Of a stretch of 32,546 nucleotides of DNA, positions 11,233 to 32,546 are shown in pieces. The notes beneath the pieces were generated by a model. The model made no database searches, was not told where the DNA came from, and was given only the letters and a program-made list of their open reading frames with translations. This DNA is from a virus: IMG/VR virus record IMGVR_UViG_3300006922_000097, positions 1 to 32,546 of that record. One strand, given 5' to 3'. The first letter of the stretch is position 1, and the number at the start of each line of letters is the position of its first letter. The position numbers were made by a program, and so were the translations under genes.

Positions 11233-11274
11233 GTTTTATAAATTGACCTTATTTTTATTATAATATTATTGAAA

Positions 11275-11280
11275 GTGAGG
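11275..11280 (+). promoter_or_regulatory. Ribosome binding site that decides the nuclease start
   Basis: GTGAGG ends six bases before the ATG at 11287. An in-frame TTG at 11269 would give six extra residues but would place this site inside the gene and has no good site of its own, so ATG 11287 is preferred. Confidence 0.6.
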
Positions 11281-11286
11281 TCAATT

Positions 11287-12120: not shown

Positions 12121-12128
12121 AGGAAGAG
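12120..12128 (+). promoter_or_regulatory. Ribosome binding site supporting a TTG start
   Basis: AAGGAAGAG lies 5-9 bases before the TTG at 12134. No in-frame ATG occurs near the conserved N-terminal strand of the glycosyltransferase, so this site decides for TTG. Confidence 0.55.
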
Positions 12129-12133
12129 AATAA

Positions 12134-13387: not shown

Positions 13388-14616
13388 TGAAAGTAATTAT
13401 AAGTGGTCCTCTTCTAAGCATGTCTGGATACGGAAATCATGCCAGACAAGTTCTTGACTTTGTTTTTGAAAAGCATAAAAATGACGAAATATTTTGTGAT
13501 GTGACTAGTTGGGGTAACACTAACTGGAACTTGACAAAAGACTTTTTGTCAAAAAGCGTTTTTGATAAAATAATCAATAATTTTATATCTGAAGCTGACA
13601 TAAACAGACTAGCAGATAAAAATACTCCCTACTTTAACGTATCATATCAGATATGTTTTCCAGATCAATGGTCTACAAGAATAGCAAAACATAATATTGG
13701 TTTTTTTGCAGGAATTGAAACTACAATTTGTTGCGAAAAGTGGATCGATCAAATTAATTTAATGGACAAAGTTGTAGTACCTTCAGCTCACGCTTTAAAC
13801 TCAATAAACAACGCAGTCAAGCATTACTACTGCCAGAAGCTAGACACTGAAGTCTGTGTTATTCCTGAGTGGTTCTACGATGATTTTTCTATCGAAACTA
13901 CAGTTGACATATGTAGTCTAAAAGAAGTTAAAACAGAGAACAACGTATTGATCATAGGACAGCTAAACAAAATAAACCCGGAAACTGATAGGAAAAATAT
14001 TCTGAATACATTAGAAGCTTCAATATTAGCTTTGAAAGGTACAGAGTGGGGAATAATTTTAAAAATGTTTACTGAGAACAATTCATGTTTTGATTTTTAT
14101 AAAACTAAAAAAATATTAAAGACTTATATCGATCTTACTTTTAAAGATGTAAAATTACCAAAAGTTTATCTTGTTCACGGTAATATGAAAAATAAAGAAA
14201 TTAAAGAACTGTACAGTAGCAGTAAAGTTAAGTGTTTGGTTTCTGGTACAAGAGGCGAAGGATTTGGTTTAACTTTTTTAGAGGCAGCTGCAAGTGGAAT
14301 ACCTATTGTTGCAACAAAATGGTCAGCTTATGACGAGTATCTAGACTATTATCTTGGTGTAGACTTTGACTTAGTAAATATACCTACATCATTAAGCAAT
14401 GTAAAAAATGAATTCGAAGTTTACTCAAATATATGGGTTGAAAATTCAAAATGGGCTGAGTTTAACAAGAAAAGCATGATAGATAGTATTATAAAAGTTA
14501 CAAAAAAAGATTTTAACAGCGTTAAAATATTAAATCAGAAAAAATCTATTTTAAACAAATACTCGAAAAATTCAATAATGTGTATTTACAATAAACAACT
14601 TGGCAGGCAATACTAA
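13387..14616 (+). CDS. GT-B glycosyltransferase (GT4-like), second of two
   Basis: 409 residues. ATG overlaps the preceding stop; AGAGGA at 13372-13377 is the ribosome binding site. The N-terminus (KVIISGPLLSMSGYGNHARQ) has the strand plus Gly-rich turn of a GT-B fold. The mid region FFAGIETT and VVVPSAHALNSI is typical of phage members of this group. The donor site contains Glu291-Gly-Phe-Gly-Leu-Thr-Phe-Leu-Glu299 (EX7E) and AAASGIPIVATKWSAYDEYL. The strand VLIIGQLNKINPETDRKN (near residue 188) replaces the usual GRL...KG segment. It differs clearly from its upstream partner outside the donor site, so the pair is not a recent duplication and may act in sequence on one acceptor. It overlaps the small membrane-protein gene by one base. 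The substrate is unknown. Confidence 0.8.
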   Translation: MKVIISGPLLSMSGYGNHARQVLDFVFEKHKNDEIFCDVTSWGNTNWNLTKDFLSKSVFDKIINNFISEADINRLADKNTPYFNVSYQICFPDQWSTRIAKHNIGFFAGIETTICCEKWIDQINLMDKVVVPSAHALNSINNAVKHYYCQKLDTEVCVIPEWFYDDFSIETTVDICSLKEVKTENNVLIIGQLNKINPETDRKNILNTLEASILALKGTEWGIILKMFTENNSCFDFYKTKKILKTYIDLTFKDVKLPKVYLVHGNMKNKEIKELYSSSKVKCLVSGTRGEGFGLTFLEAAASGIPIVATKWSAYDEYLDYYLGVDFDLVNIPTSLSNVKNEFEVYSNIWVENSKWAEFNKKSMIDSIIKVTKKDFNSVKILNQKKSILNKYSKNSIMCIYNKQLGRQY

Positions 14617-16093: not shown

Positions 16094-17917
16094 ATGTTAA
16101 GCTCAGGCTTTGTTGTTCATTATATAAGGGACTACTCTGTTTCTTCTATAGAAAAAACAAAATCAATATTAAGTGAATATTTAAGCAGCGGAATTTTAAA
16201 CCCTAAAGTTGAAACAGGTGATAGTTTAGATAACTTTACTGAAAATTTGCCAATTGGGACTGTTATATGTATTGATATAACAGATACTAAAACAAAAACC
16301 GCTTATGTTTGTTTGCCTATGCTTTCTACACACATTTCTCTTCCTGTTAAGCCAGGTGAAATAGTGTGGTTTTATAAAAATCAAACACCTACATTTGATG
16401 ATACATCTAAGAAAGCGCATCCGATGCTTTCAATTGAAAACTATTGGCTTTCTAGAAAAGTTGGTAGCAGAGTTTCTGAAGATTTGTCTTTTGCTTTTTT
16501 ATCTCGTGACGTTAGTATAAGTAATAAGCTACAAACAAAAGATACAAACTTAAAAGGCTTAGAAAGCAAAAAAACAGATATAAAAAAAAGAAATAAAAAG
16601 TTAAAGATAGAAGAAGACAAAAAAATAAAGCTTCCTGACTACAAAATACCAGAAACTTACACTAACAAATATCCTTTCTTGAAAGACGAAGAAATTTCTA
16701 ATGTATATAATAATTCTAAAAAAAGCTTAGATGTTTATCCAACAGCAGTGCCTAGATGGAATTCAAAACCTTTTGAATTAACTTTACAAGGATCTAATAA
16801 CTCTTTAATTAATTTAACAAAAACTTTTTCTAATGAATTATCTCATGAGTCTAGCGGCGCAATTGACTTAGTTGCAGGTAGGCATATGTTAGAAGATTAT
16901 ACGGATTATGAAGAAGAAGACTTTTTTAGTTTAAATGAAAAAGTCGTTCAAAATCAATCAGACGTTGAAAAAAGAAAAATCGATAAGCTATCTATTAACA
17001 AGTCTAGTGCTTATTTAAAAATTAAAAACTTAACTGGTGACAAAGAAGTTTTAAAAAACCAAAAATTTTACTTCGGTGAAGATTTTAAAAAAGAAAGCTT
17101 AAATGCTGAAGGTGAAAATAATTTTAAAAACGATGCTTCTAGAATTTACATAACTGAATTTGATAATTTGGATAACAACGTCTATTATAATGCTATGAAC
17201 ATTTTGTTTCATAATCAAATAAACATTAGCGCTAGTGAAACTGACTTACTTTATACAGAAAAAAAATATTTTATAGATGAAAAAAATGTCGCTGGAAAAA
17301 ACTTTCCTTCAACAACAATAAAAAAAAGCACTAGCAGTCTACCTAGTGTACTAATAAAGTCTAATGACATTAGAATTATTGCAAGAAAAAGCAAAGAAAG
17401 TAAAGAAAAGTCTTTAGAAGAAGGTTCAATAAGGTTGATTAAGGAAAGTAATAGCTTTTATAACTCTTCTTGTGTTATGCTAGAAAAAGATGGAAAAGTT
17501 TTTATAGACGGAAGCATAATTCACTTAGGTAGCTTTCAAAAAGAAGTAGAAAGATCAAAAACTAATTTAGAAAGTGAAGAAGACATACAAAAAATGTCAG
17601 GAAATGGATATGGCTTATTGATAGGCTATGAACCTAAACTTTCTGAACCTTTGGTTTTAGGCAATACTTTAGAAGCAATGCTTAAAGAAATGATAAATGT
17701 CAACATAAAGTTAATTGATGAAATTAAAAAACTTTCAGATGATTTATCAAAGCATACTCATCTAGGAATTCCAATAACAGGTATATCTGGACCTCCTCAA
17801 GTTCCTTTGCCTTATACAAATTTTTCTGGAAATGAGCATAAAAACATAAAAAAAAGATATGAGGATCTTCAAAAAGGTTTGAAAGACATGCTTTCAAAAT
17901 TTGCAAAAACAACTTAA
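16094..17917 (+). CDS. Baseplate hub/spike-like protein with N-terminal OB-type domain (gpV/gp5-like)
   Basis: 607 residues, starting 4 bases after the previous stop. Residues ~45-110 (PIGTVICIDITDTKTKTAYV, then LPVKPGEIVWFY) read as an OB-fold of the kind at the base of P2 gpV and T4 gp5 spikes. A long Lys/Asn/Ser-rich middle (about 145-460) contains PFELTLQGSNNSLINL and SSGAIDLVAGRH, motifs I recall from marine phage baseplate proteins. Near the C-terminus, VFIDGSIIHLG and LSEPLVLGNTLEAMLKEMI precede a coiled coil and His554-Thr-His556, resembling the metal-binding HxH of gpV-type spike tips, although here ~50 helical residues follow it. No lysozyme domain is visible, unlike T4 gp5. Position directly ahead of gp25 and gp6 supports the hub/spike assignment. 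Confidence 0.6.
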   Translation: MLSSGFVVHYIRDYSVSSIEKTKSILSEYLSSGILNPKVETGDSLDNFTENLPIGTVICIDITDTKTKTAYVCLPMLSTHISLPVKPGEIVWFYKNQTPTFDDTSKKAHPMLSIENYWLSRKVGSRVSEDLSFAFLSRDVSISNKLQTKDTNLKGLESKKTDIKKRNKKLKIEEDKKIKLPDYKIPETYTNKYPFLKDEEISNVYNNSKKSLDVYPTAVPRWNSKPFELTLQGSNNSLINLTKTFSNELSHESSGAIDLVAGRHMLEDYTDYEEEDFFSLNEKVVQNQSDVEKRKIDKLSINKSSAYLKIKNLTGDKEVLKNQKFYFGEDFKKESLNAEGENNFKNDASRIYITEFDNLDNNVYYNAMNILFHNQINISASETDLLYTEKKYFIDEKNVAGKNFPSTTIKKSTSSLPSVLIKSNDIRIIARKSKESKEKSLEEGSIRLIKESNSFYNSSCVMLEKDGKVFIDGSIIHLGSFQKEVERSKTNLESEEDIQKMSGNGYGLLIGYEPKLSEPLVLGNTLEAMLKEMINVNIKLIDEIKKLSDDLSKHTHLGIPITGISGPPQVPLPYTNFSGNEHKNIKKRYEDLQKGLKDMLSKFAKTT

Positions 17918-17951: not shown

Positions 17952-18539
17952 ATGCCTGTCAAAAATAATTACGAGCTTGGTAGATCTGTAAGTCAGTTAA
18001 AAGCAATAAGCGATTGGAAAAATAAAACTGTAGAAAAAGAGTCTAAACCAATCGGTATTAAAACGCCTCTAGAAAAAGGTAATTTAAAAGACGAGACCTT
18101 ATTTAAGATGCATTTTAATATTCTTGATCAAATAAGAGACAATTTAAAAAATTTAATTATGACACAAAAAGGTGAAAGGCTTGGCTTTCCAGATTACGGA
18201 ACAAGATTAAGAGCAGTTTATTCAAATACTTCTTTGACTGATGATCAGATAGCAGATTATGCTTCTTTAGAAATAAAAAACGTTGTTAGCAAATATATGC
18301 CGAACATAACGTTATCTGAGTTTTACTCAAGTGAAGTAGACAATAATGATTTTTCTAGAGGCGAAGATTTTATTAACAAGCAATCAAGCATTGAAATATC
18401 AAGTGCATCTAGCATTGAAACAAAAAACAAAAAAAACAAAAACTTAAATAAACTTTATTTAATAAAAATAATCTTTAGTATACCTTTATTAAATAGCGAA
18501 GATAACTCAGTAATTTTATTTATTAATAATGCAGTATAA
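17952..18539 (+). CDS. 25: Baseplate wedge protein, gp25/gpW family
   Basis: 195 residues. The diagnostic block is residues ~50-105: LFKMHFNILDQIRDNLKNLI, then MTQKGERLGFPDYGTRLRAV and a following helix with DDQIADYASLEIKNVVSKYMP. The pattern NL...L.T..GER...P.(Y/F)G..L is the hallmark of the GPW/gp25 family. The known role is an inner wedge subunit, tied to sheath polymerisation, that joins the baseplate wedge to the tail in P2, T4 and contractile injection systems. It is longer than T4 gp25 (132 residues): an N-terminal extension of ~30 residues and an Asn/Ser/Lys-rich insert (~130-165) before the last hydrophobic strands account for this. The order gpV-like, W, J matches P2 and related phages. 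Confidence 0.85.
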   Translation: MPVKNNYELGRSVSQLKAISDWKNKTVEKESKPIGIKTPLEKGNLKDETLFKMHFNILDQIRDNLKNLIMTQKGERLGFPDYGTRLRAVYSNTSLTDDQIADYASLEIKNVVSKYMPNITLSEFYSSEVDNNDFSRGEDFINKQSSIEISSASSIETKNKKNKNLNKLYLIKIIFSIPLLNSEDNSVILFINNAV

Positions 18540-18548
18540 GGAAAAGAT

Positions 18549-20414
18549 ATGCCTTCAAGTCAATTTGAAAACTATTTAAAAAACAACAATACAAAGCAAT
18601 TTTCAAGCCAGACTTTTTCTGACTTTAGAAATGAACTTTTGCAATACGCAAATACTTTTTACAAAGATCAGATCGTAGACTTTTCTGAAGTTTCTCTAGG
18701 TGGAATGCTTTTAGACTTTGCAGCAATTGTTGGTGATTCTTTGGTTTTTTATGCTGAGCAACAATTCAATGAGTTGGATTATGAGACAGCAACTGATCCT
18801 GTAAATATAGAAAAACATTTAAGAAGAGCAAATATAAAAAACTCAGTAGCATCACCTTCTTCTGTAAATTGTACTTTTTCAATTGAAGTGCCAATAGATA
18901 AAGCCTCACCACCAAGCGATTTAAAACCTGATTCAAAGTTGCTGCCAATAATAAAAAAAGGTACTCAAGTTTCTTCTTCAAACGGTATAAACTTTATTCT
19001 TCAAGAAGATGTCAACTTTGCAAATGTTCAGTTTAAGAAGGAAGTAGGTGAAGAAAATGAAGATGGAACTGCATCAACATTGTTTTTAAGTGCTGACGGG
19101 TTGTGTATATCAGGAAATATTACAAGAGAAATTTTTGCTTTTCCAGATGAAGAAAAAGACTTTTTTTTGGCAAGAGAACTAAACAATACAGACGTTACTT
19201 CAATAATTAGTGTCCTAGATGAAGAAAATAATGAATACAATCAGGTTGATTACTTAACACAAACTACTGTTTTTAAAAAAATAGAAAACTCAAACGAAAA
19301 CTATTTAACAATTTTACCTTCGCCTAGAAGATTTATAAGAGAAGATTCTTTTCAAACTGGTAGAACTTTAATTAGATTTGGCAATGGCAAAGGAAAAGAA
19401 ATTAAAGACAATATGTTTTCAAATCCAGAAGATTTAATTCTTCCTATAAAAGGTAAAAATAATTTTTCTAGAATTGATTTAGACCCAAGCACACTTTTAG
19501 AAAACAGCACTTTTGGTATATCACCAAAAGGAAGAACTTTAACAGTTACTTATAAGTATGGCGGAGGTACAAGACATAACGTAAGAGATGGATCAATTAA
19601 TTCTGTTTTAGAAAATCCAATTGTAGTTTTTGCAAACAATAATGACTTGTTAAACGATGAAGATACAAGATTCATTGTTGTATCATTAAGCGTTACTAAT
19701 AAAAATAGTGCTGTTGGAGGATCAGATCCACTTACTCTAGATGAGCTTAAAGCTCAAATACCAAGTGTAATAAGATCACAGTCTAGGATAATAACTCATG
19801 AAGACTTAATTGCAAGAATTATGACTATGCCTTCTGATTTTGGTAGAATAAACAAGGCAGTTGCATTAGAAAACAATGTCAGCGCTGGCTCTGTTGATTT
19901 ATATGTAATATGCAAAGACAATGAAGGTTTTTATACAGAAGCTTCAGACGCAATAAAGACAAACTTATCAAGATATATAAATGAATACAGACTAATTGGA
20001 TCAAATTTTAATATCTTAGACGTTCCTGTATTTAACTTTGGAATTGCAATGAAGATAAACGTTAAATCTGGATTTGATCCTTTTGAAGTAATATTTGATG
20101 TTAATTCTAGAATAGTTGAAACAATGAGATTTGACCTGTTTCAAATAGGTACGCCAATTAATGTTAATGAATTAATTAAAGTAGTTGAAGCAACTGGTGG
20201 TGTTCATAATATTATTACTAATAGGAAGTCTATTGTAGTTTCAAAAACAGAAGAAGATAGCTTTTTTGACATGGATGATCTTACTACAAGACAATATAAT
20301 AAAAGTGTATTTAACCCTTTAATGAATTATAGAGAAGGCTTGATATATCCTCAACGTGGAGGTTTATTTGAAATGAGATACACAGCTAGAGATATTATTA
20401 TTGCTGCACAATAA
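18549..20414 (+). CDS. 6: Baseplate wedge protein, gp6/gpJ family
   Basis: 621 residues, close to T4 gp6 (660). ATG with AAGGA at 18538-18542. The N-terminal block (~17-90) has FSDFRNELLQYANTFYKDQI, then DFSEVSLGGMLLDFAAIVGD and FYAEQQFNELDYETATDP, the conserved opening of gp6/baseplate-J proteins. The C-terminal half carries LDELKAQIPSVIRSQSRIIT and HEDLIARIMTMPSDFGRINK (~397-435), then a ferredoxin-like region ending IGTPINVNELIKVVEATGGV (~535-555), which matches the J-family C-terminal module. Known role: gp6 dimers form the iris ring of the baseplate that opens on sheath contraction. It directly follows the gp25 gene with a 9-base gap, as expected for wedge partners. Confidence 0.85.
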   Translation: MPSSQFENYLKNNNTKQFSSQTFSDFRNELLQYANTFYKDQIVDFSEVSLGGMLLDFAAIVGDSLVFYAEQQFNELDYETATDPVNIEKHLRRANIKNSVASPSSVNCTFSIEVPIDKASPPSDLKPDSKLLPIIKKGTQVSSSNGINFILQEDVNFANVQFKKEVGEENEDGTASTLFLSADGLCISGNITREIFAFPDEEKDFFLARELNNTDVTSIISVLDEENNEYNQVDYLTQTTVFKKIENSNENYLTILPSPRRFIREDSFQTGRTLIRFGNGKGKEIKDNMFSNPEDLILPIKGKNNFSRIDLDPSTLLENSTFGISPKGRTLTVTYKYGGGTRHNVRDGSINSVLENPIVVFANNNDLLNDEDTRFIVVSLSVTNKNSAVGGSDPLTLDELKAQIPSVIRSQSRIITHEDLIARIMTMPSDFGRINKAVALENNVSAGSVDLYVICKDNEGFYTEASDAIKTNLSRYINEYRLIGSNFNILDVPVFNFGIAMKINVKSGFDPFEVIFDVNSRIVETMRFDLFQIGTPINVNELIKVVEATGGVHNIITNRKSIVVSKTEEDSFFDMDDLTTRQYNKSVFNPLMNYREGLIYPQRGGLFEMRYTARDIIIAAQ

Positions 20415-20423
20415 GGAACAAGA

Positions 20424-22334
20424 ATGATTATAATATTAGAACCTCAAAAAGACACTTATGTTACAAATCTTAAAACACAGAATAATGATGCTTCTCTTGC
20501 AAATGTCGGTCATGCTGCAACTTTAGATTTATTTAAACTTTACAACGAAAATAAAAATTCACATTCTTGGGCAGTTTTTGAATTTAGCAATACACCATCA
20601 GATTTAATAAGTAATGGTAATACATTAACTTTAATTGATTCTGTAGGCGTAAGCAAAACTTTTGAGTTTGATACTGATGATCCTGCAAATGTTGCTGGAG
20701 ACAATATTCGAATAAATATTAAAGCTGCAAATGACATTAATGATAACAGAACATACGCAGCAACGATAGCAGCCTCTATTAATGCAGTTAATGACTTAGA
20801 CATAATTGCTTATAGTAATTCAAATAATCAATTAATATTAAAACAGAATAAACCTGGTGAGTCTGGTGATACAAATATTGTTTTTAATATGACAAATACA
20901 TCACTTAAAAATAAATATATAGACGATGAAGGTGATGCTATTAGAAAATTTGCTAGAATTGAATATAGCAATATACTAATTAAGTTTGATTTAGAGAACT
21001 TTAAAAAGAGTTGGAATATAGGTAATGACATAACAGCTGAAGGTGCATTTAATAATTTAAAAGCAGAATTAATATTAAAAGATGTAACAACAGGAATATC
21101 AAAGCCTAAAGACTATAGCTTAGAACTATATAGCCTAAATAAAGATTTTGATGAAGGTATAGGAAAAGATACAATATACTTTTCAGATAGTGATACATGC
21201 AATTTTAAAGATATATCATCTACTCAAACTTGGGAAGTACAAAATATAATATCTGATGGTGATGCTGCAGCTTTAAGTACAGCTTCATCAACAGGAAACA
21301 TAGAAAAAGGCGACGAAGACCTAGCTTTTAATATTACAAACTATGTAAAAGCTGAATTAGAAAAAGGTACTGTTGCTGATCCTGCTTTGACTGACAAAGG
21401 CTTTTTAATTAAGTTTTTAGATAGTGACATTTATGACAACAAGTCTTATTTTGTTAAAAGATTAGGCAGCAGACATTTAATAAATAAGAAATTTGTGCCG
21501 CAGCTAAGAATTAAAATAGATGACTCTTCTTATAATATTCCTACTAACTCATTTAATAAAGTAAGATATCTAGATAGCACTGAAGATTTTTATCTGTTTA
21601 ACAGAGCAAATGGCTTAAATCAATCTTTTAAATTTCCTGTTGGCTTTGATCCTGATACAACTTTAAAGATGAAAATATCTAGTAGAGATACTGTGCCTGT
21701 TGATTTTGTTACATTAATAGCTAATAATCATACTGACAGCCCTGTTACTAATTTTTCTGGTGACCCAATTCCTGGAATAAGAAAAGTTCTATTGTCTGAT
21801 ACAGAGCTAAGTAGATTTAACAGCAATATAAGTGATAAAATTAAAAACAACAAGCTTGAAGCAAAAATTACTTGGTTCTGGGATGACGGCATTAATTCTC
21901 ATACAATATCAGAAGAGAATACACAGTTTTCTGTAAGTGAAAACATTAATGAAACAAAATATGAAAACCTTGTTACTTCAATAAGAATAACAGAGAATGA
22001 TTTGTTTGCAAATGACGGCACAAACTCTGTAGAAGTATATTTTGTTGACACTAAAAAAGAGTTTACTGCTGTAAAGGTTCCTTATGAACTACCAAGTGAA
22101 AATATCGGTGAAGTATTCTATCAAGTCTATGACGTAGAAACAGGTAATATTTTAATAGACTATGATAATCCAGCAACAAAGATGTTTTATGACGGTGAAA
22201 AATACAAGTTTAATTTGTTTGTTCCTAATCTATTTAAAAACTTAAGAATTAACTTTAAATTCAAGTATAAGGATCCGATTACAAATGTGAACAAATTTAT
22301 CTTTAATAAAAAGTACTCAGTTAGGATAATATAA
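20424..22334 (+). CDS. DNRLRE-type (carbohydrate-binding-like) baseplate protein with inserted domain
   Basis: 636 residues. Opens with IIILEPQKDTYVTNLK and then ANVGHAATLDLFKLY, the start of a DNRLRE-like beta domain (DTYV... then a DLFKL strand). That domain resumes after residue ~172 with ARIEYSNILIKFDL, a SLELYSLNKDFDEGIGKDTI strand, GDEDLAFNITNYV and GFLIKFL, ending in SYFVKRLGSRH...PQLRIKIDD near residue 365. Between residues ~52 and ~170 lies an extra module (TLTLIDSVGVSKTFEFDTDD..., AATIAASINAVNDLDI..., QLILKQNKPGESGDTNI), a unit I recall as widespread in marine phage structural proteins. The C-terminal third is Asn/Asp-rich beta-like sequence of unknown function. The known fold binds sugars or mediates adhesion. 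It lies between J and the I-like gene, so a baseplate-periphery adhesin or wedge-accessory role is inferred. Confidence 0.6.
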   Translation: MIIILEPQKDTYVTNLKTQNNDASLANVGHAATLDLFKLYNENKNSHSWAVFEFSNTPSDLISNGNTLTLIDSVGVSKTFEFDTDDPANVAGDNIRINIKAANDINDNRTYAATIAASINAVNDLDIIAYSNSNNQLILKQNKPGESGDTNIVFNMTNTSLKNKYIDDEGDAIRKFARIEYSNILIKFDLENFKKSWNIGNDITAEGAFNNLKAELILKDVTTGISKPKDYSLELYSLNKDFDEGIGKDTIYFSDSDTCNFKDISSTQTWEVQNIISDGDAAALSTASSTGNIEKGDEDLAFNITNYVKAELEKGTVADPALTDKGFLIKFLDSDIYDNKSYFVKRLGSRHLINKKFVPQLRIKIDDSSYNIPTNSFNKVRYLDSTEDFYLFNRANGLNQSFKFPVGFDPDTTLKMKISSRDTVPVDFVTLIANNHTDSPVTNFSGDPIPGIRKVLLSDTELSRFNSNISDKIKNNKLEAKITWFWDDGINSHTISEENTQFSVSENINETKYENLVTSIRITENDLFANDGTNSVEVYFVDTKKEFTAVKVPYELPSENIGEVFYQVYDVETGNILIDYDNPATKMFYDGEKYKFNLFVPNLFKNLRINFKFKYKDPITNVNKFIFNKKYSVRII

Positions 22335-25300
22335 TGGCTTTAGTAAGTGATTCACAAAAAAGTAATAGCTTGTTTTCTCCAAGCAAAAATAGCTTAAGCC
22401 TAAGAAAAAGTAGTACGCAAGACTTTCAGGATATTTTAAAAAGTTTAAACATAATTGATCCTGAAAGTCTTTCAAAAGAAGACCTTTCAAATATTATACG
22501 TAGAATTGATGATTATAATGGACTGTTTACAACACAGCAGTTAAAAAACATAAAGTATGAAGATTTTTCTGAACATGTGTTTTTTGATTCTGCAGTAAAT
22601 AAAGTTGCATATGCTTTCGATAGAATAGCAAATATTCCTTATGATAAAGATGAACTAGAAAATATAAAGTTCAATAACAAAACAGAAGGTTATACAAATC
22701 ATGTTCTTAAGAATTTATATCCAAGCTCTCTAGGCTATATTAATTTTTCAGGTTCAGAAAGAGTCGTTGTTTACGATCAAAAAGGTAGGATATTAAACGA
22801 CATAAGTAAAGAAAAAAGAAAAGTTGGTACTCTTAGCCCAGATAATCAAAAATTTTCATTTGAGTTTTGGCTAAAGATAGATGCACCAGAAGTTTTAGGA
22901 AATCAGGTTTTATTTAAAAAAGTAAAAAATGAAAATAATATTTTAGACGGATTTATTTGTTACATAGAAGAATCAGATGACGTTTCGGACAGCTATTTTA
23001 AAATAAATATGCTTATAATAATAAATAACAAATACAGTCTTTCTACTTGCTTAGTAGAAAAAAATTCTTGGCAAAATATTGTAATAAGTATTAACGAAGA
23101 AAAAGGCTTTAAGAAGACAAACTTTTTAATAAATGGAATAATAATAGAAGAAAACAAAGTCGCTAGATCAGGAAGTGGAGTTAAGCATACAAGTTTTAGT
23201 GAAAACATCAAATCTCTCAACGTTCCCTTTGTTTTAGGTGGTGTTTTTATTCCAAATGATCAAAATAGTTCAGCTGAAAGTGTTTTTACGTGGAACAACG
23301 TTGCCTTTACAGGTCTTGTTGGCAAAATAGATGAATTTAGATACTTTGCCAAAATTAGAAGTAGTAATACAATAAAAAAATATATGCATAGAAATATATT
23401 TGCGCAAAGAGGTTTAAAACTATATTTAAGAATGAACGAACCAGGCGGAGAATATACAAATAGTTGCCTTGTTATTGACTATTCTGGTAATAAATTACAT
23501 GGTATTTTATACTCAAAAGATCAACAAAATAATTTTTCTGTAATTACTAATACATCTAGTGTAAAAGAAAACATAAACACACCTTTGAAAAATGAAATTA
23601 AGATTGATTCTCCTGTTTTAAATGCAGGATATACAAGTATACAAGCAATAAGAAAAAAGCTTACAGATGTAGCAAAAGAATATGATAAAAACAATCCAAA
23701 TTTAATTTTTAATTTAATGCCAAAACATTACTTTTTAAATGCATCTGACTTCCAAAATCTTCCAGTGTTTTCTAATGATAGTGAGTACACTTATCCTGTA
23801 TCTGTTGTAGGTGAAGATGGTTTTTCAACTAATACAAAAAATACAAGTTTAAACTCAACAATACCTGCAAATAATGAGCTGGTTAATATTGTTTTAATCT
23901 GGGCAAGATTTTTTGATCAACTAAAACTATACATTTCATCTATAGGTAATTTTTTGAATGTTGATTATGATTCAATCAACAAAGAAAGCGTTATAGGGAT
24001 GCAAATCCCTATTTTATGTAAAATGTACGGAATAAATTTCAAAGAAATTCTTCCAAGTGCTACTAAAGAAAAACTAAACAATTTTAATCTTTCACATGAA
24101 GATATTATTTCTAATATTGGAATTAGAAAAATACAGAACATTTTATGGCAAAGATTTTTAATTAATACACAAGACTTTCTTAAGTCAAAAGGAACAATAA
24201 AAAGTGTAGAAAGTACTTTTAATTCTTTTGGAATTGAATACTCAAAGTTTATAGACATAAAAGAATATGCAACTTTTAATGATATTAAGCTTGATAATAA
24301 CTTTTTTGTATTAGAAAAGAAAGCAAATCTTTTAAACTTTGGAAATTCAAAAGAAATAGCTGTAAGCCCTACTTACACTGATGTTTCTGTTAATGATTTT
24401 TCTAATAACAAAACTTTTCTAAATATAGAAAACATAAGGACACACAGCACTTCTAAAAGTGGCGTTGGAGAAGATATTTTTCTAGGCTTAAATATCGACT
24501 GGTCTATAGAAATGTTTTTCATGTTTAAGGACACTATTAAAAGTAAAAACATAACTAATGAAAGTGGTTATGGATTAAAACAGTGTTTGTTTAGACTAGA
24601 CGAAGGAAACGAAAAAAATCTAGCTCTTATCGTGTATTATGAAAACTATGACAATGTAAAAAAAGATTTAGGTAAACTAACAGTAAACATACAGCCTATT
24701 AAAAACAACGCTAGCTATAATGTTACAATTGAAATTCTTGATGTAAACATATATGACTTGCCTAAATATTTCTGTATATCACAGAAAATAGATTATAATA
24801 ATAACTCAATTACATATGATTTGTTCTTAGATGATATAGGAAAACATGACAGCTTAAAGAAAAGTCAAAAGTTATCAAAAACTATAAGTGATATCACTTT
24901 AAGAGACGCAAACAATAATATAACAAAAACATTGCAACAAATTATTAATGATGATTTAAATCATAGTTTTCATAAAAACATATTAGACATGAGCATTGGC
25001 AATTACAATTACATAAGTAACAATATGCTTACTCACTTAATTTCTAGTGGTGCTGACACTAATTTTGAAGGGCAAATTATCAAAGTAAGAGGCTGGAAAA
25101 AGAAACTGTCTAATAAAGAATGCAAGTCTCATTCTGAGAATATTGATAATATTGGCACAGAAAGTAATATTATGCATGACAATGTTATTTTTGACTTTGA
25201 ATTTAGTGAAACAGTCAGCACAAAGCAAACTCAAAACAACATATCAACATACATAGCAAAAAACAATTCTAGAATATTTTCAAATGCTGACTTTTCTAGC

Positions 25301-25975
25301 TTAATTAATACATGCAGTATTAAAACAAGAAATACGTCACAGATTAATCAGTTTAATATAGAAAGCTTCTTTATCAAAAAGCAAAATATCAATATTGATT
25401 CACCGATTAGATCAAACAGAGTTAACATAGTAAGTTACAGCGAAGAAGAAAATAAAGAGCTTAAAAATAACTTTAACTTTTTTCCATCAAATAACATACC
25501 TATTGACTTTAACTACGATGAAGTATCCAGAGTTTCTATAGACATGTCTATTACAAAGTCAATCAATAGTGACATATCAAATATACTTTCAGACTTAAAT
25601 GGCTTTACTTATAAAATGACAAATTATTTTGGTAAATATGACTACAGCTACAAAGAAATAGAAAGCTTAAGAGATCAATACTTTGAAAAATTTAGTGATT
25701 CTATTCTATTGAATTACTCTTCTATCGGTAATATATTTAAATATTTCGACAATATTATGTCTTCTATACTATATGATATTGTTCCTAGCAGCGTAAGATT
25801 TGAAGGCTTTAACTATGTATATGAATCACATATTTTAGAAAGACATAAATATCAATATAAAAACTTAAATAGTTGTATTGCTATTAATGATCTAAGTAAC
25901 AGCGCCAGTTTTTCTCGAGAAACAGGTAAATTTAGAAGAAGTATTGTGTATAATAACAATAGAAAATTAACTTAA
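22334..25975 (+). CDS. Giant baseplate protein: LamG-like, gpI-like, second LamG-like
   Basis: 1213 residues; ATG overlaps the upstream stop, with TAGGA as ribosome binding site. Residues ~174-395 look like a LamG/concanavalin jelly roll (FSFEFWLKI, SWQNIVISIN, GLVGKIDEFRYFAKIRS, then LKLYLRMNEPGG). Residues ~515-650 resemble the P2 gpI tail-assembly segment: VNIVLIWARFFDQLKLYI, then a Trp-Gln-Arg-Phe-Leu helix and FLKSKGTIKSVESTFNSFGI, the KGT...(A/V)E...G signature. A second LamG-like sandwich spans ~720-940 (DWSIEMFFMFKD..., QIIKVRGWKKKLSNKECKSH). The C-terminal ~100 residues (IGNIFKYFDNIMSSILYDIV, VRFEGFNYVYESHILERHKY) form a conserved-looking helical end. Inferred role: a wedge-to-fibre connector carrying sugar-binding lectin domains. 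Domain labels are from pattern recognition, not searches. Confidence 0.6.
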   Translation: MALVSDSQKSNSLFSPSKNSLSLRKSSTQDFQDILKSLNIIDPESLSKEDLSNIIRRIDDYNGLFTTQQLKNIKYEDFSEHVFFDSAVNKVAYAFDRIANIPYDKDELENIKFNNKTEGYTNHVLKNLYPSSLGYINFSGSERVVVYDQKGRILNDISKEKRKVGTLSPDNQKFSFEFWLKIDAPEVLGNQVLFKKVKNENNILDGFICYIEESDDVSDSYFKINMLIIINNKYSLSTCLVEKNSWQNIVISINEEKGFKKTNFLINGIIIEENKVARSGSGVKHTSFSENIKSLNVPFVLGGVFIPNDQNSSAESVFTWNNVAFTGLVGKIDEFRYFAKIRSSNTIKKYMHRNIFAQRGLKLYLRMNEPGGEYTNSCLVIDYSGNKLHGILYSKDQQNNFSVITNTSSVKENINTPLKNEIKIDSPVLNAGYTSIQAIRKKLTDVAKEYDKNNPNLIFNLMPKHYFLNASDFQNLPVFSNDSEYTYPVSVVGEDGFSTNTKNTSLNSTIPANNELVNIVLIWARFFDQLKLYISSIGNFLNVDYDSINKESVIGMQIPILCKMYGINFKEILPSATKEKLNNFNLSHEDIISNIGIRKIQNILWQRFLINTQDFLKSKGTIKSVESTFNSFGIEYSKFIDIKEYATFNDIKLDNNFFVLEKKANLLNFGNSKEIAVSPTYTDVSVNDFSNNKTFLNIENIRTHSTSKSGVGEDIFLGLNIDWSIEMFFMFKDTIKSKNITNESGYGLKQCLFRLDEGNEKNLALIVYYENYDNVKKDLGKLTVNIQPIKNNASYNVTIEILDVNIYDLPKYFCISQKIDYNNNSITYDLFLDDIGKHDSLKKSQKLSKTISDITLRDANNNITKTLQQIINDDLNHSFHKNILDMSIGNYNYISNNMLTHLISSGADTNFEGQIIKVRGWKKKLSNKECKSHSENIDNIGTESNIMHDNVIFDFEFSETVSTKQTQNNISTYIAKNNSRIFSNADFSSLINTCSIKTRNTSQINQFNIESFFIKKQNINIDSPIRSNRVNIVSYSEEENKELKNNFNFFPSNNIPIDFNYDEVSRVSIDMSITKSINSDISNILSDLNGFTYKMTNYFGKYDYSYKEIESLRDQYFEKFSDSILLNYSSIGNIFKYFDNIMSSILYDIVPSSVRFEGFNYVYESHILERHKYQYKNLNSCIAINDLSNSASFSRETGKFRRSIVYNNNRKLT

Positions 25976-25988
25976 ATTAGAGAAAAAT

Positions 25989-27059
25989 ATGATCAATGAA
26001 AACAATCCAATACAGCTAGATGAAAACTCGGTATTTTTTGACAATAGAAATATTTTCTACGAGCATGTAGAAAAGCAAAGCTTTAAAAAGTCTATTTTTA
26101 AAAATACTGATCATTTTTTCGACTCAGACAACAATAAAATTACTCAAAAATATAACGTTTTAAATGAAAATACTTTAAACATAAGTCTATTTATAGGTTT
26201 TGGTTCTACATACTGTAAAAACAATATTTGTAATAGTGACATTTATAAAAAAGACACTAATTACGGCAAAAAAAGACTAAGTTATTTTAATGATAGTGAA
26301 GATTACAAAGGAAATGATTTAAGTTTAAACAACAACTTGTTAATTTTTAAAAAAACTTATGGTCTAGAAAATCCTGATGAGCTGTTTGAAAAAGTGCAAG
26401 AAGAGCCTTTTGAAGAAGTTGAAAACATAGAAAATGTTTCCGAGTTTTTTAAAATGCCTTCTGAGCTTAAATATCCCAGGTATTTTAACTATTATTCACT
26501 TTCAAGATTAAACTCTAATATTAGCGTTTTCGGAACAATAGAAGAAATTGACGGTACAAGTCTTACAGAAAAATCATTAAAAGGTATCACGTGTGAAATC
26601 ATCAGTAACGGAACTGATGCAAGAGAAAGATCCATAAACTTTTCAGATAGAATAACACTTCAAGAATTAGAAATAGATGCGAGCAATAGGCAAAAGTACT
26701 CAATCGAAAGCTATTCAGATGAAGAGTATGAAGACATAGTAACTGGTGAAGATACTTTGCTGAAAAGATCTTTTGCTTATGTCAACAAAGTCATAAATGG
26801 TCAAGTTGTTACAGTTTTTGACACTAGTGATAGTACTTCAAGCTTTATACCTAGACTTACAAATAAGATAATATTCTACACTGAAGACTCGAATACCATT
26901 ACGCCTTTTGAAGATAGAAGTATTGTTGAAAATAGAGATAATCAAACCGCAAATAGCGATTATAATAAAGGAGACGTTTATCCGTCTCATGGAAACGATA
27001 GAGATAATTCATTCGGGTCTGGACCAGATTCTAGTGCATACACAGGAGAGCTTGACTAA
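25989..27059 (+). CDS. Unrecognised phage structural-region protein, 356 aa
   Basis: ATG with TTAGAGA upstream, 13 bases after the previous stop. I do not recognise the family. The protein is hydrophilic and acidic, rich in Asn, Asp, Ser and Glu. Residues ~1-90 contain many Phe and Tyr (SVFFDNRNIFYEHVEKQSF, LNISLFIGFGSTYCK with two nearby Cys). An acidic linker follows (EKVQEEPFEEVENIENVSEF, ~134-153), then a beta-like stretch (~160-300). The last ~45 residues are an unstructured-looking Asp/Asn/Ser/Gly tail. There is no signal peptide, membrane helix or catalytic motif. It is joined by a TAATG overlap to the very large gene downstream, which suggests the two products act together, for example as a connector or assembly partner. 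Confidence 0.5.
   Translation: MINENNPIQLDENSVFFDNRNIFYEHVEKQSFKKSIFKNTDHFFDSDNNKITQKYNVLNENTLNISLFIGFGSTYCKNNICNSDIYKKDTNYGKKRLSYFNDSEDYKGNDLSLNNNLLIFKKTYGLENPDELFEKVQEEPFEEVENIENVSEFFKMPSELKYPRYFNYYSLSRLNSNISVFGTIEEIDGTSLTEKSLKGITCEIISNGTDARERSINFSDRITLQELEIDASNRQKYSIESYSDEEYEDIVTGEDTLLKRSFAYVNKVINGQVVTVFDTSDSTSSFIPRLTNKIIFYTEDSNTITPFEDRSIVENRDNQTANSDYNKGDVYPSHGNDRDNSFGSGPDSSAYTGELD
27044..27048 (+). promoter_or_regulatory. Strong ribosome binding site of the giant 3'-partial gene
   Basis: AGGAG, ten bases before the ATG at 27059-27061. That ATG shares bases with the upstream TAA stop, so the site both decides the start and lies within the preceding gene. Confidence 0.55.
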
Positions 27060-30000
27060 TGCCAAAGATAAGAAAAAAGTTTATTACAACAGGTATAGAT
27101 GAAAGCTATTATAGCATTATTAACAATATTAACGATGAATATTCGCATGCTAAAATTAATGATGATAATGATGTAAATAGTGTAGTAATAAAATCAGGTT
27201 TACTGTCAAGCTCTAGTGGTAAGTACTTAAAACATGCTAACTCTGAAGCTGGAACTTTACCTTCGGTGTTACAAACAACAGGTCAAATTCTTCAAGATTA
27301 TAATGACCCGTTTAATGAGACAAATGTATTAGAATATAAAAGTATACTGTCAAACTCAAATGTTGGATTACCACTTGTTACGCTTACTCAAAGTGATGGA
27401 TCTCAGCAAATAAGTGTAGGACACTATATGACTACAGATTCTAGTCTAATTTCAGCTGGAACTATATCTAAAGAAGATAGTCATTATGTTTCAAAATATG
27501 ATTTATCAAACGCAAAGATATTCGACAATCCTAATACTTTTAATGATCACATGAAACACAATGGAGTTTCAGGTTCTGTGGCAAGAAGCATTAAATCTTC
27601 TATTGATAGTGTATTATTGCAGCAAACAAGATTTAATGAAGAGTATAAGCCCTTCAAAGAAGATTTTTCCAGTTTCTCAATTCCTTACGAAAGTGACTTT
27701 TATTATGAAACTATAGACAGTGAGATTTCAAAAAACTACAATCTTGGCAAACAGAGACAAATCAAAATAATACTTGATTTTTCTAATGAAAACTCAGTTG
27801 ACTTAACTCTTTTAAATACAAAAATGACTTTTAATTTGCCTGATGTTACTTCAAACTACACAGAAGACAATCTTATATCTACAAAGTATATTAATTTTAT
27901 TGAAGGGGATGCTAAAGCTTCTTATAGCTCACACTTCTTACCTACAGCATACTGGAATTTTAAAAAAAATAGATGGAACTATTTAGATGGCAATTTGCTA
28001 GAATTTGACAGTGATCAAGAAAGTAATCTAGATTTAGCTGACTTTCCTGTTACACAAAGTAGTGATATAAAATATTCTTACTTAGGTGCAATAAACAATA
28101 CGGGTTCTTCTACTACAATAAGTCCAAATTTTATATATAGCGGATCAAGCATACAGAGTCAAGAAATATATGATAAAAATATTAAAAACAATGTCTTATC
28201 TGTTTATAACAAACCTATAGTTACTACACCAGGATTTAGACCTGATGGTAGTATGACATCTTCTAGTAGTGGCAGTGATTATAATAAAACTGCTATATCA
28301 AAAATAACTAATACATACGGTTTTCCTTATAAACAAAATTGGCAGCCAACAAATGACCAGCTGCTAGATATGTCAAATTATATCGCAAACGACTTTTTGC
28401 TAGAAAAAATATCAATTAAAGGCAAGTTTACTTCGCAAGGTGAGATTCCTAACAAAAAAGGTAATTTTTCTAGTGGTTATTCTCAAGAAAGCAATGCATT
28501 AAACAGCACAACTTTTAATCAATCCTATGATTACAAGGACAATTTTGAAGACTATATTTCAAATAACTTAACTTTTTTCATTCTTAACGAGAGAAAAGGT
28601 TTTAACCACGTAAAACAGGAAATAAATGCTGAACCTTTACAAAGTTACTTTTTCTCAAAGCCATTAAACCTTTCTCAGCCTATAGACTATTACAATGTTA
28701 AAGGAAAAAAGCTTGACAGCTACATAGGCAGCTATTCTTCATATGAGAATTTTCAAAATACTCTAAATGTATATAGCCAAATTATTCCAAATACTTTTAT
28801 ATATAGCGTTAACGAGTACAACGAATTAAAACTGAAAAGTAATTATACTATAACTAGTGGTGTTAACAATACAGAAGTTAAAAATAATAATAGACAGAAT
28901 ATATTTCACTTTTTTGAAAATATAAGTGATAGTAGCAATAATGAAACTATAGATTCTGTTTATATAAAGAATGGAGGAATCAATCACTCTTTAGACGTAT
29001 TAAGTGGTAATGACAATAAAAAATATAATATAAAACTAGAGAGTATTCTTCTAGAAAATAATACTGAGATTTCAAAAAACAATTTTAATTTAAATTCAGG
29101 AAGAGAACTTGTTACATACTCTAATTTTTTAATTGCAGGTAAAAAAAATAACATTAGCTTAGATGAAAAAACTCTTATTAATATTGATGAAAAGAAAGTT
29201 ATAGACTTTAACACAGGTGAAGTCAATATAAACATAAATGAAAAAGAAGAGTTTATAGTAAACAGCATGGTAAAAAGTGCGCACATTTCAGACTACTCTG
29301 ATGAGTCTATCTATAAAATTAAAAGCAACTTTAAAGAAGAAATAATTTCTAGGCAAGAGGAGACATCATCAGTAAATATAGGTATTCCAAAAGCAGTTGC
29401 ACAAAGTATTTTGACGAACAACCTTTTTGATTTTGATGGATCAGCTGATAAAGACGGAGACGAATTATTAAGAATACTAGGCATGCCAGATGCAAGTAAA
29501 GGATTTGGTGACTTTAATACGTTAACTGAGTATATAAACAACACGCAGAATCATGGTCTTACTGATAATATAATTACTAGTGTCGATGCGGCCTCGCAGA
29601 CGCTTACTAATGCAAATTGTACTTTTTTAAACAGCATTTTTACGACTACTGTAAAAGATCTTGCTGATGATCAATTAAAAGAAAGTAATATTTTGCTTTA
29701 CTTTACTTACAGCAACAGTTCAGCAGTTAATAACGAACACTATTCTTCTACTAGCGGACCTTCTTCTGTTAACTTACAAGATTTTATTACTTATACAAAG
29801 ACTACACATCCTTTAACTGGTAGTGATATAAATACTAACATATTTTTTAATTTAAGGTTCTTAGACCCATTCCAGACTTCTGGAATTTCAGATGATTTTT
29901 TCAATCTAGGTTTTTTAGGATTTAACAATAATTACTGGGCAGACTTTGATCCTGCTATTTTGAAAGGAATAGACTACAGCTTTTCATTAAAAAATAATAC

Positions 30001-32546
30001 AAATGATATATGGTCTAGTACTACTAACCAAATTAAATTATCTAACTTTTTAAAATTTATATATATGGGAATATTCAATGCAACGCTATACAACAAAGAA
30101 AACGGAGTTGCAATAGAAGACTCAGGCGGCAATTCAAGAACTATTTTTGAATTCTTAGAGTTTAATTTGTCAAACAACACAATAAAAGCTAAAGATATAA
30201 ACGGATTTAATGCAGGAACTAGCGCAGAATTTAGCTTTTTTGAAACAAAATTTAATCCATACAAGAGCAGTAGTAATAATGAAATTAAAGACTTTTTTGC
30301 TGAAGAGTTGGGTGATATAGATATACAACATGCGTTTGTAAAGATTTTTGATATAAGCAACAATTTAAGAGGTCTAACTGAAATTTCACAAGATGAAATA
30401 TTTTATAACATAAATAACATTTTAGAAGGAAAGTCGCTTGGATCGCCAAACAATTTAGGGATTAGTAACGAAAGAATTGTAGATAGAAAAAGAAACAAAA
30501 ACTCTAATATTTTAGAAAATGCAGTAAAAACTATTTCTGGCAAAGAAATAAAAAGTAAAAATTCTTTTAATTTCACTGAAAATAGTACGTATTTGCTTAA
30601 GCCTGAAGATAACTTGATTTTTGGCGTAAGCTCAAATTGTAATGGTGAGGTTGCGCCAACAGTAGTAACACTACATGATAAACTAGAAATTACTTTAATA
30701 GGCAGAGACTTTACTAAAAACAAAAAGCATAGAACAAATGAGTGTAAGTCAATTAGAAAAGTAGTTACAGGTGATAGTAATATTCAAAGAATAGGTAGCA
30801 GTGTATACCAAACAGAAGACTCTTATTTCGACAGTGTGTGGAATAAAAGCTCTTCTTTTGATAACTTGAAAGATTTTAACACAAAGTTTGAAATTGGCAA
30901 AAACTCTTCTAGGGACTTTGGAACATATACAGGTGTAATAAGCTTTGACAAAGAATTTAACGAAAAAAGCGAAGTTACTTATAAAGCAGACACAGTTCAA
31001 CCTTCTTTGGCAAAAGTTTATCTGTCAGAAAGTTGTTTAAATAAAAAACAACTATATAGCATAGATTCTCGAGACAGATATGAATTTAATAAAGCTAATA
31101 GAAGAAATATTAAACTACCTTCATATAAAATGACTTTTAGCGACAGTATTAAAGAAGAATTTTTGACAGAGTATCCTAATCGATACTCAAAGGTTGAAAC
31201 AAACTGGCACAAGACTTTTCATATGCAAGTGTATAAAGAGTTTTTTCAAAGTAGTGAAAACAAAAAAATAGTAGATTATTCTTATAATACTTCACTAGCA
31301 AAAAGCAATGATATTAAAAGCAATCATTTTGTTTATTTTGATATTAACAGTTATTCAGCTGGATTAAACTATGAAAATCATACATCATTATCAAAAAAGT
31401 ATATTGAAAATGGTAACAAAACAATTGTTACTGAAGAAATTGCAGACCCTACATCACCTATTATTAATAAAATACCAAGGTACTATAAATCTTTAAAAAC
31501 ATATATGTTACCTTTTTCAAAACATTTTATTGTACAAAATTCTTTAAATATTGAAAATAATTTGTATTCTAGACAGGACAAGTTTATTAGAAATGATATT
31601 CTTATACAGAAAAACTTGACAGATACAGCAGCTTTTGACATTGAAAACTATTCTATCCAATACTTGCTTCACGACATTGAGCCTGAGTATTGTGATTTAT
31701 CTCAAGACGTCAGTTACAGCCTCTTTGGATTAAATAAAATTCAGTACTCTAGCGGCTGGTGCATTGTATTAGAAGTTGATTTGCTTTTATTTGACAGCTT
31801 ACTTTCAAACCTTAGCAGCAAAGACTACGAGCTTTTTAATAGTAGCAAAAAAGATGTAAACCCAGCTGGTGAAGGCTTTACTGTTACATACTACGAAAAA
31901 AATATCTTCCTAAACATTTCAGAAAAGCCACAGACTTTTTCTAGCATTAGTGACATTGATTTGTCAAAAACAGTTACTAAAAAGTTTAAATTCATCAAAA
32001 AAACTTATGACAATAGCAGTCCTACAGAGTATTTTTTAGTAGCTCCTTTACATTTCTGGGAAACTGGCGAGCTTGATACTTCAAAGAATTCTGTCAACAA
32101 TATTTTTGACAGAGAAAAAGATTCATCAACAACAAGTAGTATTGTAGGCTTTGGCAGGAAGTCAAGTCAGTTTAACGACGCAAATAGTTTGGCAAATCCA
32201 TCTGCAGCTTGGTTTGCTAAATTAGAGGATAATACTAGTATTGCAACTGCAGCTGCAAGTTCTAACATTTATGAGAATTTTCTAATACTAGAAAGTAATG
32301 AAAACTATGAAAATAATTTTGTACATCCACCTTCAACACTTAATAGAAAAATAACAATAACAGGACTTAGTTCTACTGCTTTACTAGGTGTTAATGGGCC
32401 AATTGCTGGTAGTATTATTAATAACACTTCTATTTTTGTACCATTTAAACAAACTGAGCTAAGTAACAATGCAGAAGCTTCTGCGCAAAACTTAGTTATA
32501 ACAAGAAATATTATTTTATCTAATTCAAGTAACAGTCAAAAAAAAA
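27059..32546 (+). CDS. Giant virion-protein frame, at least 1829 aa, 3' end cut by window
   Basis: I translated this frame codon by codon from ATG 27059 to the window end: no stop occurs, so at least 1829 codons are coding and the 3' end lies outside. It starts MPKIRKKFITTGIDESYYSI. The protein is Asn/Ser/Lys/Phe/Tyr-rich with no clear enzyme motif, signal peptide or membrane helix. Segments worth searching: YNLGKQRQIKIILDF (~residue 230); GIPKAVAQSILTNNLFDFDG (~772), which includes DGSADKDGDELLRIL; LLKPEDNLIFGVSS...LHDKLEITLIGRDF (~1180-1220), which I recall from conserved structural proteins of large marine phages; and a beta-rich C-terminal part (YYKSLKTYMLPFSKHF..., ~1475 on). Coupled to the 356-aa gene by a TAATG overlap. 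It is probably a very large baseplate-periphery or tail protein; the exact role is unknown. Confidence 0.6.
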   Translation, partial: MPKIRKKFITTGIDESYYSIINNINDEYSHAKINDDNDVNSVVIKSGLLSSSSGKYLKHANSEAGTLPSVLQTTGQILQDYNDPFNETNVLEYKSILSNSNVGLPLVTLTQSDGSQQISVGHYMTTDSSLISAGTISKEDSHYVSKYDLSNAKIFDNPNTFNDHMKHNGVSGSVARSIKSSIDSVLLQQTRFNEEYKPFKEDFSSFSIPYESDFYYETIDSEISKNYNLGKQRQIKIILDFSNENSVDLTLLNTKMTFNLPDVTSNYTEDNLISTKYINFIEGDAKASYSSHFLPTAYWNFKKNRWNYLDGNLLEFDSDQESNLDLADFPVTQSSDIKYSYLGAINNTGSSTTISPNFIYSGSSIQSQEIYDKNIKNNVLSVYNKPIVTTPGFRPDGSMTSSSSGSDYNKTAISKITNTYGFPYKQNWQPTNDQLLDMSNYIANDFLLEKISIKGKFTSQGEIPNKKGNFSSGYSQESNALNSTTFNQSYDYKDNFEDYISNNLTFFILNERKGFNHVKQEINAEPLQSYFFSKPLNLSQPIDYYNVKGKKLDSYIGSYSSYENFQNTLNVYSQIIPNTFIYSVNEYNELKLKSNYTITSGVNNTEVKNNNRQNIFHFFENISDSSNNETIDSVYIKNGGINHSLDVLSGNDNKKYNIKLESILLENNTEISKNNFNLNSGRELVTYSNFLIAGKKNNISLDEKTLINIDEKKVIDFNTGEVNININEKEEFIVNSMVKSAHISDYSDESIYKIKSNFKEEIISRQEETSSVNIGIPKAVAQSILTNNLFDFDGSADKDGDELLRILGMPDASKGFGDFNTLTEYINNTQNHGLTDNIITSVDAASQTLTNANCTFLNSIFTTTVKDLADDQLKESNILLYFTYSNSSAVNNEHYSSTSGPSSVNLQDFITYTKTTHPLTGSDINTNIFFNLRFLDPFQTSGISDDFFNLGFLGFNNNYWADFDPAILKGIDYSFSLKNNTNDIWSSTTNQIKLSNFLKFIYMGIFNATLYNKENGVAIEDSGGNSRTIFEFLEFNLSNNTIKAKDINGFNAGTSAEFSFFETKFNPYKSSSNNEIKDFFAEELGDIDIQHAFVKIFDISNNLRGLTEISQDEIFYNINNILEGKSLGSPNNLGISNERIVDRKRNKNSNILENAVKTISGKEIKSKNSFNFTENSTYLLKPEDNLIFGVSSNCNGEVAPTVVTLHDKLEITLIGRDFTKNKKHRTNECKSIRKVVTGDSNIQRIGSSVYQTEDSYFDSVWNKSSSFDNLKDFNTKFEIGKNSSRDFGTYTGVISFDKEFNEKSEVTYKADTVQPSLAKVYLSESCLNKKQLYSIDSRDRYEFNKANRRNIKLPSYKMTFSDSIKEEFLTEYPNRYSKVETNWHKTFHMQVYKEFFQSSENKKIVDYSYNTSLAKSNDIKSNHFVYFDINSYSAGLNYENHTSLSKKYIENGNKTIVTEEIADPTSPIINKIPRYYKSLKTYMLPFSKHFIVQNSLNIENNLYSRQDKFIRNDILIQKNLTDTAAFDIENYSIQYLLHDIEPEYCDLSQDVSYSLFGLNKIQYSSGWCIVLEVDLLLFDSLLSNLSSKDYELFNSSKKDVNPAGEGFTVTYYEKNIFLNISEKPQTFSSISDIDLSKTVTKKFKFIKKTYDNSSPTEYFLVAPLHFWETGELDTSKNSVNNIFDREKDSSTTSSIVGFGRKSSQFNDANSLANPSAAWFAKLEDNTSIATAAASSNIYENFLILESNENYENNFVHPPSTLNRKITITGLSSTALLGVNGPIAGSIINNTSIFVPFKQTELSNNAEASAQNLVITRNIILSNSSNSQKK

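Follow-up and report, generated by a model that had tools for sequence, protein, structure and literature searches.

What part of a contractile tail could be formed by a giant protein that combines a segment resembling the baseplate protein gpI of phage P2 with two lectin-like folds? This question is raised by an ORF of 1213 aa in a virus fragment from IMG/VR (32,546 nt, henceforth the window). The first-pass annotation had described a gpI-like segment lying between two lectins and followed by a distinct C-terminal domain. In the reading that we consider likely, the ORF encodes a gp7/gpI-type wedge subunit of a T4-like baseplate that carries two LamG-type β-sandwiches, inserted at loops of the scaffold and displayed for glycan contact.

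The ORF and its genomic context

The ORF is real, and the coordinates given by the first-pass annotation agree exactly with the ORF list of the window (Table 1). Its ATG overlaps the stop codon of the preceding 636-aa gene (TAATG), and an AGGA sequence is located just upstream. It is not a chance reading frame, because dozens of relatives encode full-length counterparts (28-56% identity) at the same place in related viral contigs. One very long ORF with mixed domains might also have originated by fusion of unrelated genes, e.g. of gpI with lectin genes, through an assembly error or a one-off recombination. However, the architecture is shared by the 32 measured relatives from many samples and by the same gene in a near-identical independent contig of 133 kb (L002/G001). 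A conserved family contradicts such a fusion, which is hardly conceivable.

The locus has a conserved order: Genes for proteins of ~124 aa and ~600-690 aa are followed by the gp25-type and gp6-type genes, a gene for 600-760 aa, the homologue of the 1213-aa protein, a gene for ~300-490 aa and one for a large protein. This means, the gene lies in a contractile-tail operon behind those of the gp25 and gp6 types, which is the position of a gp7/gpI-type gene. The order gpV-like, W, J, 1213-aa gene proposed previously is correct in that the gene is located downstream of gp25/W and gp6/J, but the gene for the 636-aa protein separates it from gp6/J. Despite this one inserted gene, the locus is better compared with the T4 order gp6-gp7-gp8 than with the P2 order V-W-J-I. 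The gp6/gpJ-type protein would be the expected partner of the 1213-aa protein in a (gp6)2-gp7 heterotrimer.

The 636-aa protein is kept in related loci and is weakly homologous (P=4e-5) to the corresponding neighbour in Microcystis phage Mel-JY01, which has a sub-threshold CBM96 match; it is possibly a further sugar-binding-type neighbour of the wedge. Between the 356-aa neighbour on the other side and gp8, similarity was not detectable. The subsequent ORF (27059-32546) lacks a family match and is truncated by the end of the window. Its counterpart in the near-identical contig comprises 2222 aa, and this place in relatives is taken by proteins of either 1900-2500 aa or about 740-1045 aa. Far upstream, at 2462-6523 and 6961-11226, the window encodes two proteins of low complexity and great length (1353 and 1421 aa), which are probably fibre-like. 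Between these and the baseplate genes, at 11269-14616, a PD-(D/E)XK nuclease (Pfam, 1e-21), an exonuclease, is followed by two probable glycosyltransferases.

A T4-type gp23 capsid gene was found in all five related large contigs (E 1.5e-65 or better). The sheath family was matched in three of them, twice above the cut-off, and the near-identical contig holds both a gp23 and a sheath gene. Because of the gp25/gp6-type wedge genes and the gp23 and sheath matches, the window is part of a distant T4-like myovirus.

Table 1. Features of the baseplate locus (window positions; aa numbers refer to the 1213-aa protein).
Feature	Position	Strand	Basis
607-aa ORF, labelled gpV-like spike in the first-pass annotation	16094..17917	+	Conserved at this place in 32 relatives
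gp25/gpW-type sheath initiator	17952..18539	+	Pfam GPW_gp25 E 2e-4 (below cut-off); phrog_261 2.3e-6
gp6/gpJ-type wedge protein	18549..20414	+	Pfam Baseplate_J E 1.8e-4 (just over cut-off); phrog_6 1.2e-15
636-aa protein, possibly CBM96-like	20424..22334	+	Weak homology to Mel-JY01 neighbour
1213-aa protein, proposed baseplate wedge subunit of the gp7/gpI type, carrying two LamG-like insertions	22334..25975	+	ORF; homologues embedded in the same gene order
Conserved N-terminal helical motif (aa 55-115; IKYEDFSEHVFFDSAV...)	22496..22678	+	56% mean identity in family
LamG1, first lectin-like β-sandwich (aa ~130-395)	22721..23518	+	Pfam Laminin_G_3; AF2 strands; gap size
Core, first half (aa 506-660): helices, KGT helix, first strand; gpI-like	23849..24313	+	hhalign vs P2 gpI
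KSKGTIKSVESTFNSFGI motif (aa 617-634)	24182..24235	+	Aligns to P2 gpI HCHKGTIGAIRRVVEPLGY
LamG2, second lectin-like β-sandwich (aa ~660-945), inside core	24311..25168	+	AF2, high pLDDT
Variable spacer after LamG2 (aa 946-1040)	25169..25453	+	Least conserved part, 24% mean identity
Core, second half (aa 1050-1175): strand RVSIDMS, helices, FDNI...VP...ESHILERHKY	25481..25858	+	Joins first half once LamG2 is removed
Conserved 356-aa protein where T4 has gp8	25989..27059	+	Position only

A probable gpI-type core split by a lectin-like domain

For comparison with gpI, ten diverse P2 gpI-type proteins were drawn from annotated phages, because a viral scan with P2 gpI yielded only near-identical copies. 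Using hhalign, the KGT...FGI segment was the sole match between the window family and these ten proteins. A profile of 33 core sequences, distant relatives included, reached a score of 34.0 with P2 gpI (P=6e-4), compared to 19.8 for the best of 300 column-shuffles, 13.7 for the reversed profile and 19.2 for the best of 13 real unrelated families. At default settings, this match is short (about 30 columns). The permissive alignment with gpI starts at its first helices, includes the KGT helix and the strand after it and, skipping LamG2, resumes at RVSIDMS. Thus, KGT helix and strand order of gpI are found with scores far above the controls, and the gpI-like segment recognized in the first-pass annotation is present.

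By contrast, neither the window protein nor its close relatives attained the gathering score of Pfam Tail_P2_I, and one of the 33 core segments matched at E 0.12. NCBIfam and PHROGs gave no coherent match, and neither the whole protein nor several profiles found a relevant one by BLAST, HMMER or PDB sequence search. The best alignment with T4 gp7 in the profile comparison falls on its KG motif (735-760) and is not significant (P=0.3). In the AF2 model of the nearly complete protein, the core has low confidence. A model of the LamG-free core of Flavobacterium phage immuto, folded without partners and of moderate quality (pLDDT 70, pTM 0.41), found neither gpI nor gp7 in a Foldseek search of the PDB; a moderate, partner-free model weighs neither for nor against the assignment. 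Since this search had no match, the relation to gpI rests on sequence profiles, topology and gene order, by which a gpI-type core is strongly supported.

The extent of this core became apparent from relatives in annotated collections that were found with the gp6-like protein as bait: phage immuto, phage Mel-JY01 and a 484-kb phage genome. Each of them encodes at the same place a giant hypothetical protein with the KGT segment and a later segment of the form ...P..R......(I/V)xPxxLxR(S/D)(K/R). In immuto, these two segments are about 160 residues apart. When LamG2 is excised, residues 415-665 and 1040-1180 of the window protein align with 49 immuto-type proteins over 314 columns (98.5%, P=3.7e-15); without excision, the C-terminal part alone yields P=1e-6. 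The N-terminal helical motif matches LamG-free relatives, too (P=6.6e-4). Since the excised core aligns continuously with LamG-free relatives, LamG2 is inserted inside one fold, a split gpI/gp7-like core, with LamG1 upstream of it. Consequently, two parts of the previous description have to be abandoned. The VYESHILERHKY region is the second half of the KGT-containing core instead of a distinct C-terminal domain, and the gpI-like part is not a compact segment between two lectins, as both the alignment and the gap classes (see below) indicate that LamG2 interrupts it.

These data also bear on another reading, according to which the protein is a receptor-binding or tail-fibre-type adhesin outside the wedge and the KGT match to gpI a short coincidence. 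LamG domains are common in phage fibres, and Foldseek and Pfam detect only the LamG parts, while Tail_P2_I remains unmatched. However, LamG-free relatives at the same genome place retain exactly the core, the gene follows gp25 and gp6, the gpI profile score is far above the controls, and a separate Tail_P2_I gene was not seen with Pfam in the five related large contigs. We regard an adhesin of this kind as very unlikely.

Two LamG-like domains and their distribution

An AF2 model of residues 11-1204, built with a 33-row alignment, displays two confident β-sandwiches and a poorly resolved centre (mean pLDDT 66). Foldseek comparison with the PDB revealed LamG, pentraxin, PAPP-A and related folds (E 1e-8), in rows that do not say which of the two domains matched, and comparison with BFVD several near-full-length uncharacterised marine viral proteins. 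LamG1 combines a jelly-roll β-sandwich (AF2, Foldseek) with a match to Pfam Laminin_G_3 (E 3e-5, below the cut-off; best among relatives 2.6e-8). LamG2 of the window has no Pfam match of its own, and Laminin_G_3 weakly matched three of the 27 second-insert segments scanned (best E 0.0012). LamG2 and the insert of Mel-JY01-type proteins are homologous (P=4.6e-9); immuto-type proteins lack LamG2. Taken together, both flanking β-sandwiches look real and LamG-like, the LamG fold being strongly supported for the first and probable for the second. The two sandwiches postulated in the first-pass annotation are present, but they begin earlier, nearer to residues 125 and 660 than to 174 and 720. The structural comparison that it suggested returned LamG-type folds for the nearly complete model and, as described above, no gpI/gp7 match for the core.

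The distribution of the inserts was analysed in 187 proteins. The distance between the core halves (gap 2) is either 42-72 residues (146 in two cases) or at least 253. In 74 proteins, neither insert is present (gap 1, upstream of the core, 71-99; gap 2, 42-146), whereas 80 contain only the second one (82-126 and 253-709). Both inserts are found in the 32 proteins of the window family (312-344 and 361-420) and in L041. LamG1 is thus an insertion relative to the relatives with a short gap 1 (71-126). For most second inserts, the assignment to LamG follows from their position and family relationship rather than from individual identification. On a core tree with 73 rows, whose root is not fixed and whose sampling is centred on three queries, two changes suffice to explain the three insert states. 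Insert 2 could be ancient and have been lost in the immuto group, because the second inserts of window and Mel-type proteins are homologous. L190 and L198 were left out of the tree because their insert sits at another loop: Both are immuto-type proteins in which a long insert separates the FGVKLY-like segment from the KGT helix. Therefore, the scaffold takes insertions at at least three places. To judge from these alignments, entire lectin domains can be taken up by the gp7-type scaffold at defined loops, in one case within the conserved fold. The family is large: one scan yielded at least 570 matching stretches. It takes in the cultured phages immuto and Mel-JY01 as well as the 484-kb huge phage, which means that many giant 'hypothetical' proteins of aquatic phages are likely gp7/gpI-type wedge subunits.

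Proposed role in the baseplate

In the proposed wedge subunit, residues 506-660 and 1050-1175 would fold together into a conserved core of helical bundle plus trifurcation, expected to associate with two molecules of the gp6-like protein from the upstream gene. LamG1 would be accommodated between N-terminal helical motif and core, LamG2 between two adjacent core strands. Six wedges would then expose twelve lectin-like domains, presumably around the baseplate rim. Most likely, this array would contact surface glycans with low affinity and in a multivalent manner, either ahead of fibre-mediated adsorption or in its course, so that a structural element of the baseplate might reach the host surface as well.

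Known systems provide precedents for such a plan. P2 gpI (Pfam Tail_P2_I) and XM1 gp17 have the KGT helix, the next strand and the downstream strand-helix pattern in common with the 1213-aa protein and are also encoded after gp25/W and gp6/J. They differ in being short (176-242 aa), uninterrupted and devoid of lectin domains, and the sequence of the window protein is too distant for the Pfam model. T4 gp7 (1032 aa), encoded between gp6 and gp8, is likewise a wedge subunit of ~1000 aa with a small core among extra domains, although these have other folds (Pfam Gp7_5th, Gp7_6th, fn3-like). XM1 gp17 has two peripheral attachment regions, comparable to the additions described here, which bind the spikes (PMC10457771). 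TssG, the gp7/gpI equivalent of the T6SS, uses two sheet-protruding loops to bind the receptor-binding-like TssK; these are short loops rather than folded lectin domains (PMC6300606). The gp7-like part of Alg12 from AlgoCIS interacts with fibres and was called an evolutionary hotspot (PMC8894135). This means that adhesins attach at the gp7 homologue in XM1, T6SS and AlgoCIS (PMC10457771, PMC6300606, PMC8894135). Wedge proteins with inserted carbohydrate-binding modules have been published, too: Alg11 of AlgoCIS carries two (PMC8894135), and Gp119 of Bacillus phage Vp4 has a CBM fold and binds cells (PMC11406892). In these cases, the modules are located in another wedge protein of an injection system and in wedge protein 3, respectively, and not in the gpI/gp7-like subunit. 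The direct core homologues, immuto gp109 and Mel-JY01 WWT39511, are located at the same place after gp25 and gp6 and annotated as hypothetical; gp109 lacks both LamGs, and WWT39511 contains only the second one. Hence, the plan of a small core with peripheral additions already exists in T4 gp7, XM1 gp17 and TssG, and the 'little-described' design suspected in the first-pass annotation would be new only in its version: A LamG-bearing gp7/gpI-type subunit appears to be undescribed in the openly licensed literature. By analogy, adhesive modules built into the gp7-type subunit itself would be the likeliest arrangement.

A LamG fold alone does not imply sugar binding, and LamG folds also mediate protein contacts. 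In the same wedge subunit, LamG1 and LamG2 could instead have a docking or structural role, towards tail fibres, adjacent wedges or the large downstream gene products (356 and 2222 aa). The spike-, TssK- and fibre-binding gp7 homologues would agree with this function, which is possible, with somewhat less than an even chance. However, mean identity amounts to 56% for the N-terminal motif and 52% and 47% for the core halves, but to 36% for LamG1 and 28% for LamG2. This far lower conservation of the LamGs fits, without proving it, peripheral domains that contact a changing host surface better than fixed docking, and a connection with attachment has been reported for carbohydrate-binding modules in other proteins of the wedge (PMC11406892, PMC8894135). 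For these domains of the wedge subunit, we therefore prefer glycan contact, which we infer. If the lectins bind glycans, the record of wedge proteins with carbohydrate-binding modules would be extended to the gp7 subunit. A bolder version, in which the wedge LamG array is the primary host sensor and glycan binding moves the core and triggers baseplate opening, is unlikely; if true, a single molecule of these phages, an abundant marine T4-like group, would combine receptor binding with the contraction trigger. A homologue with 56% identity is encoded in L042 (1-6472), a sequence filed under the marine archaeon MAG ARS1414; this could reflect mis-binning of virus DNA or else point to an archaeal host.
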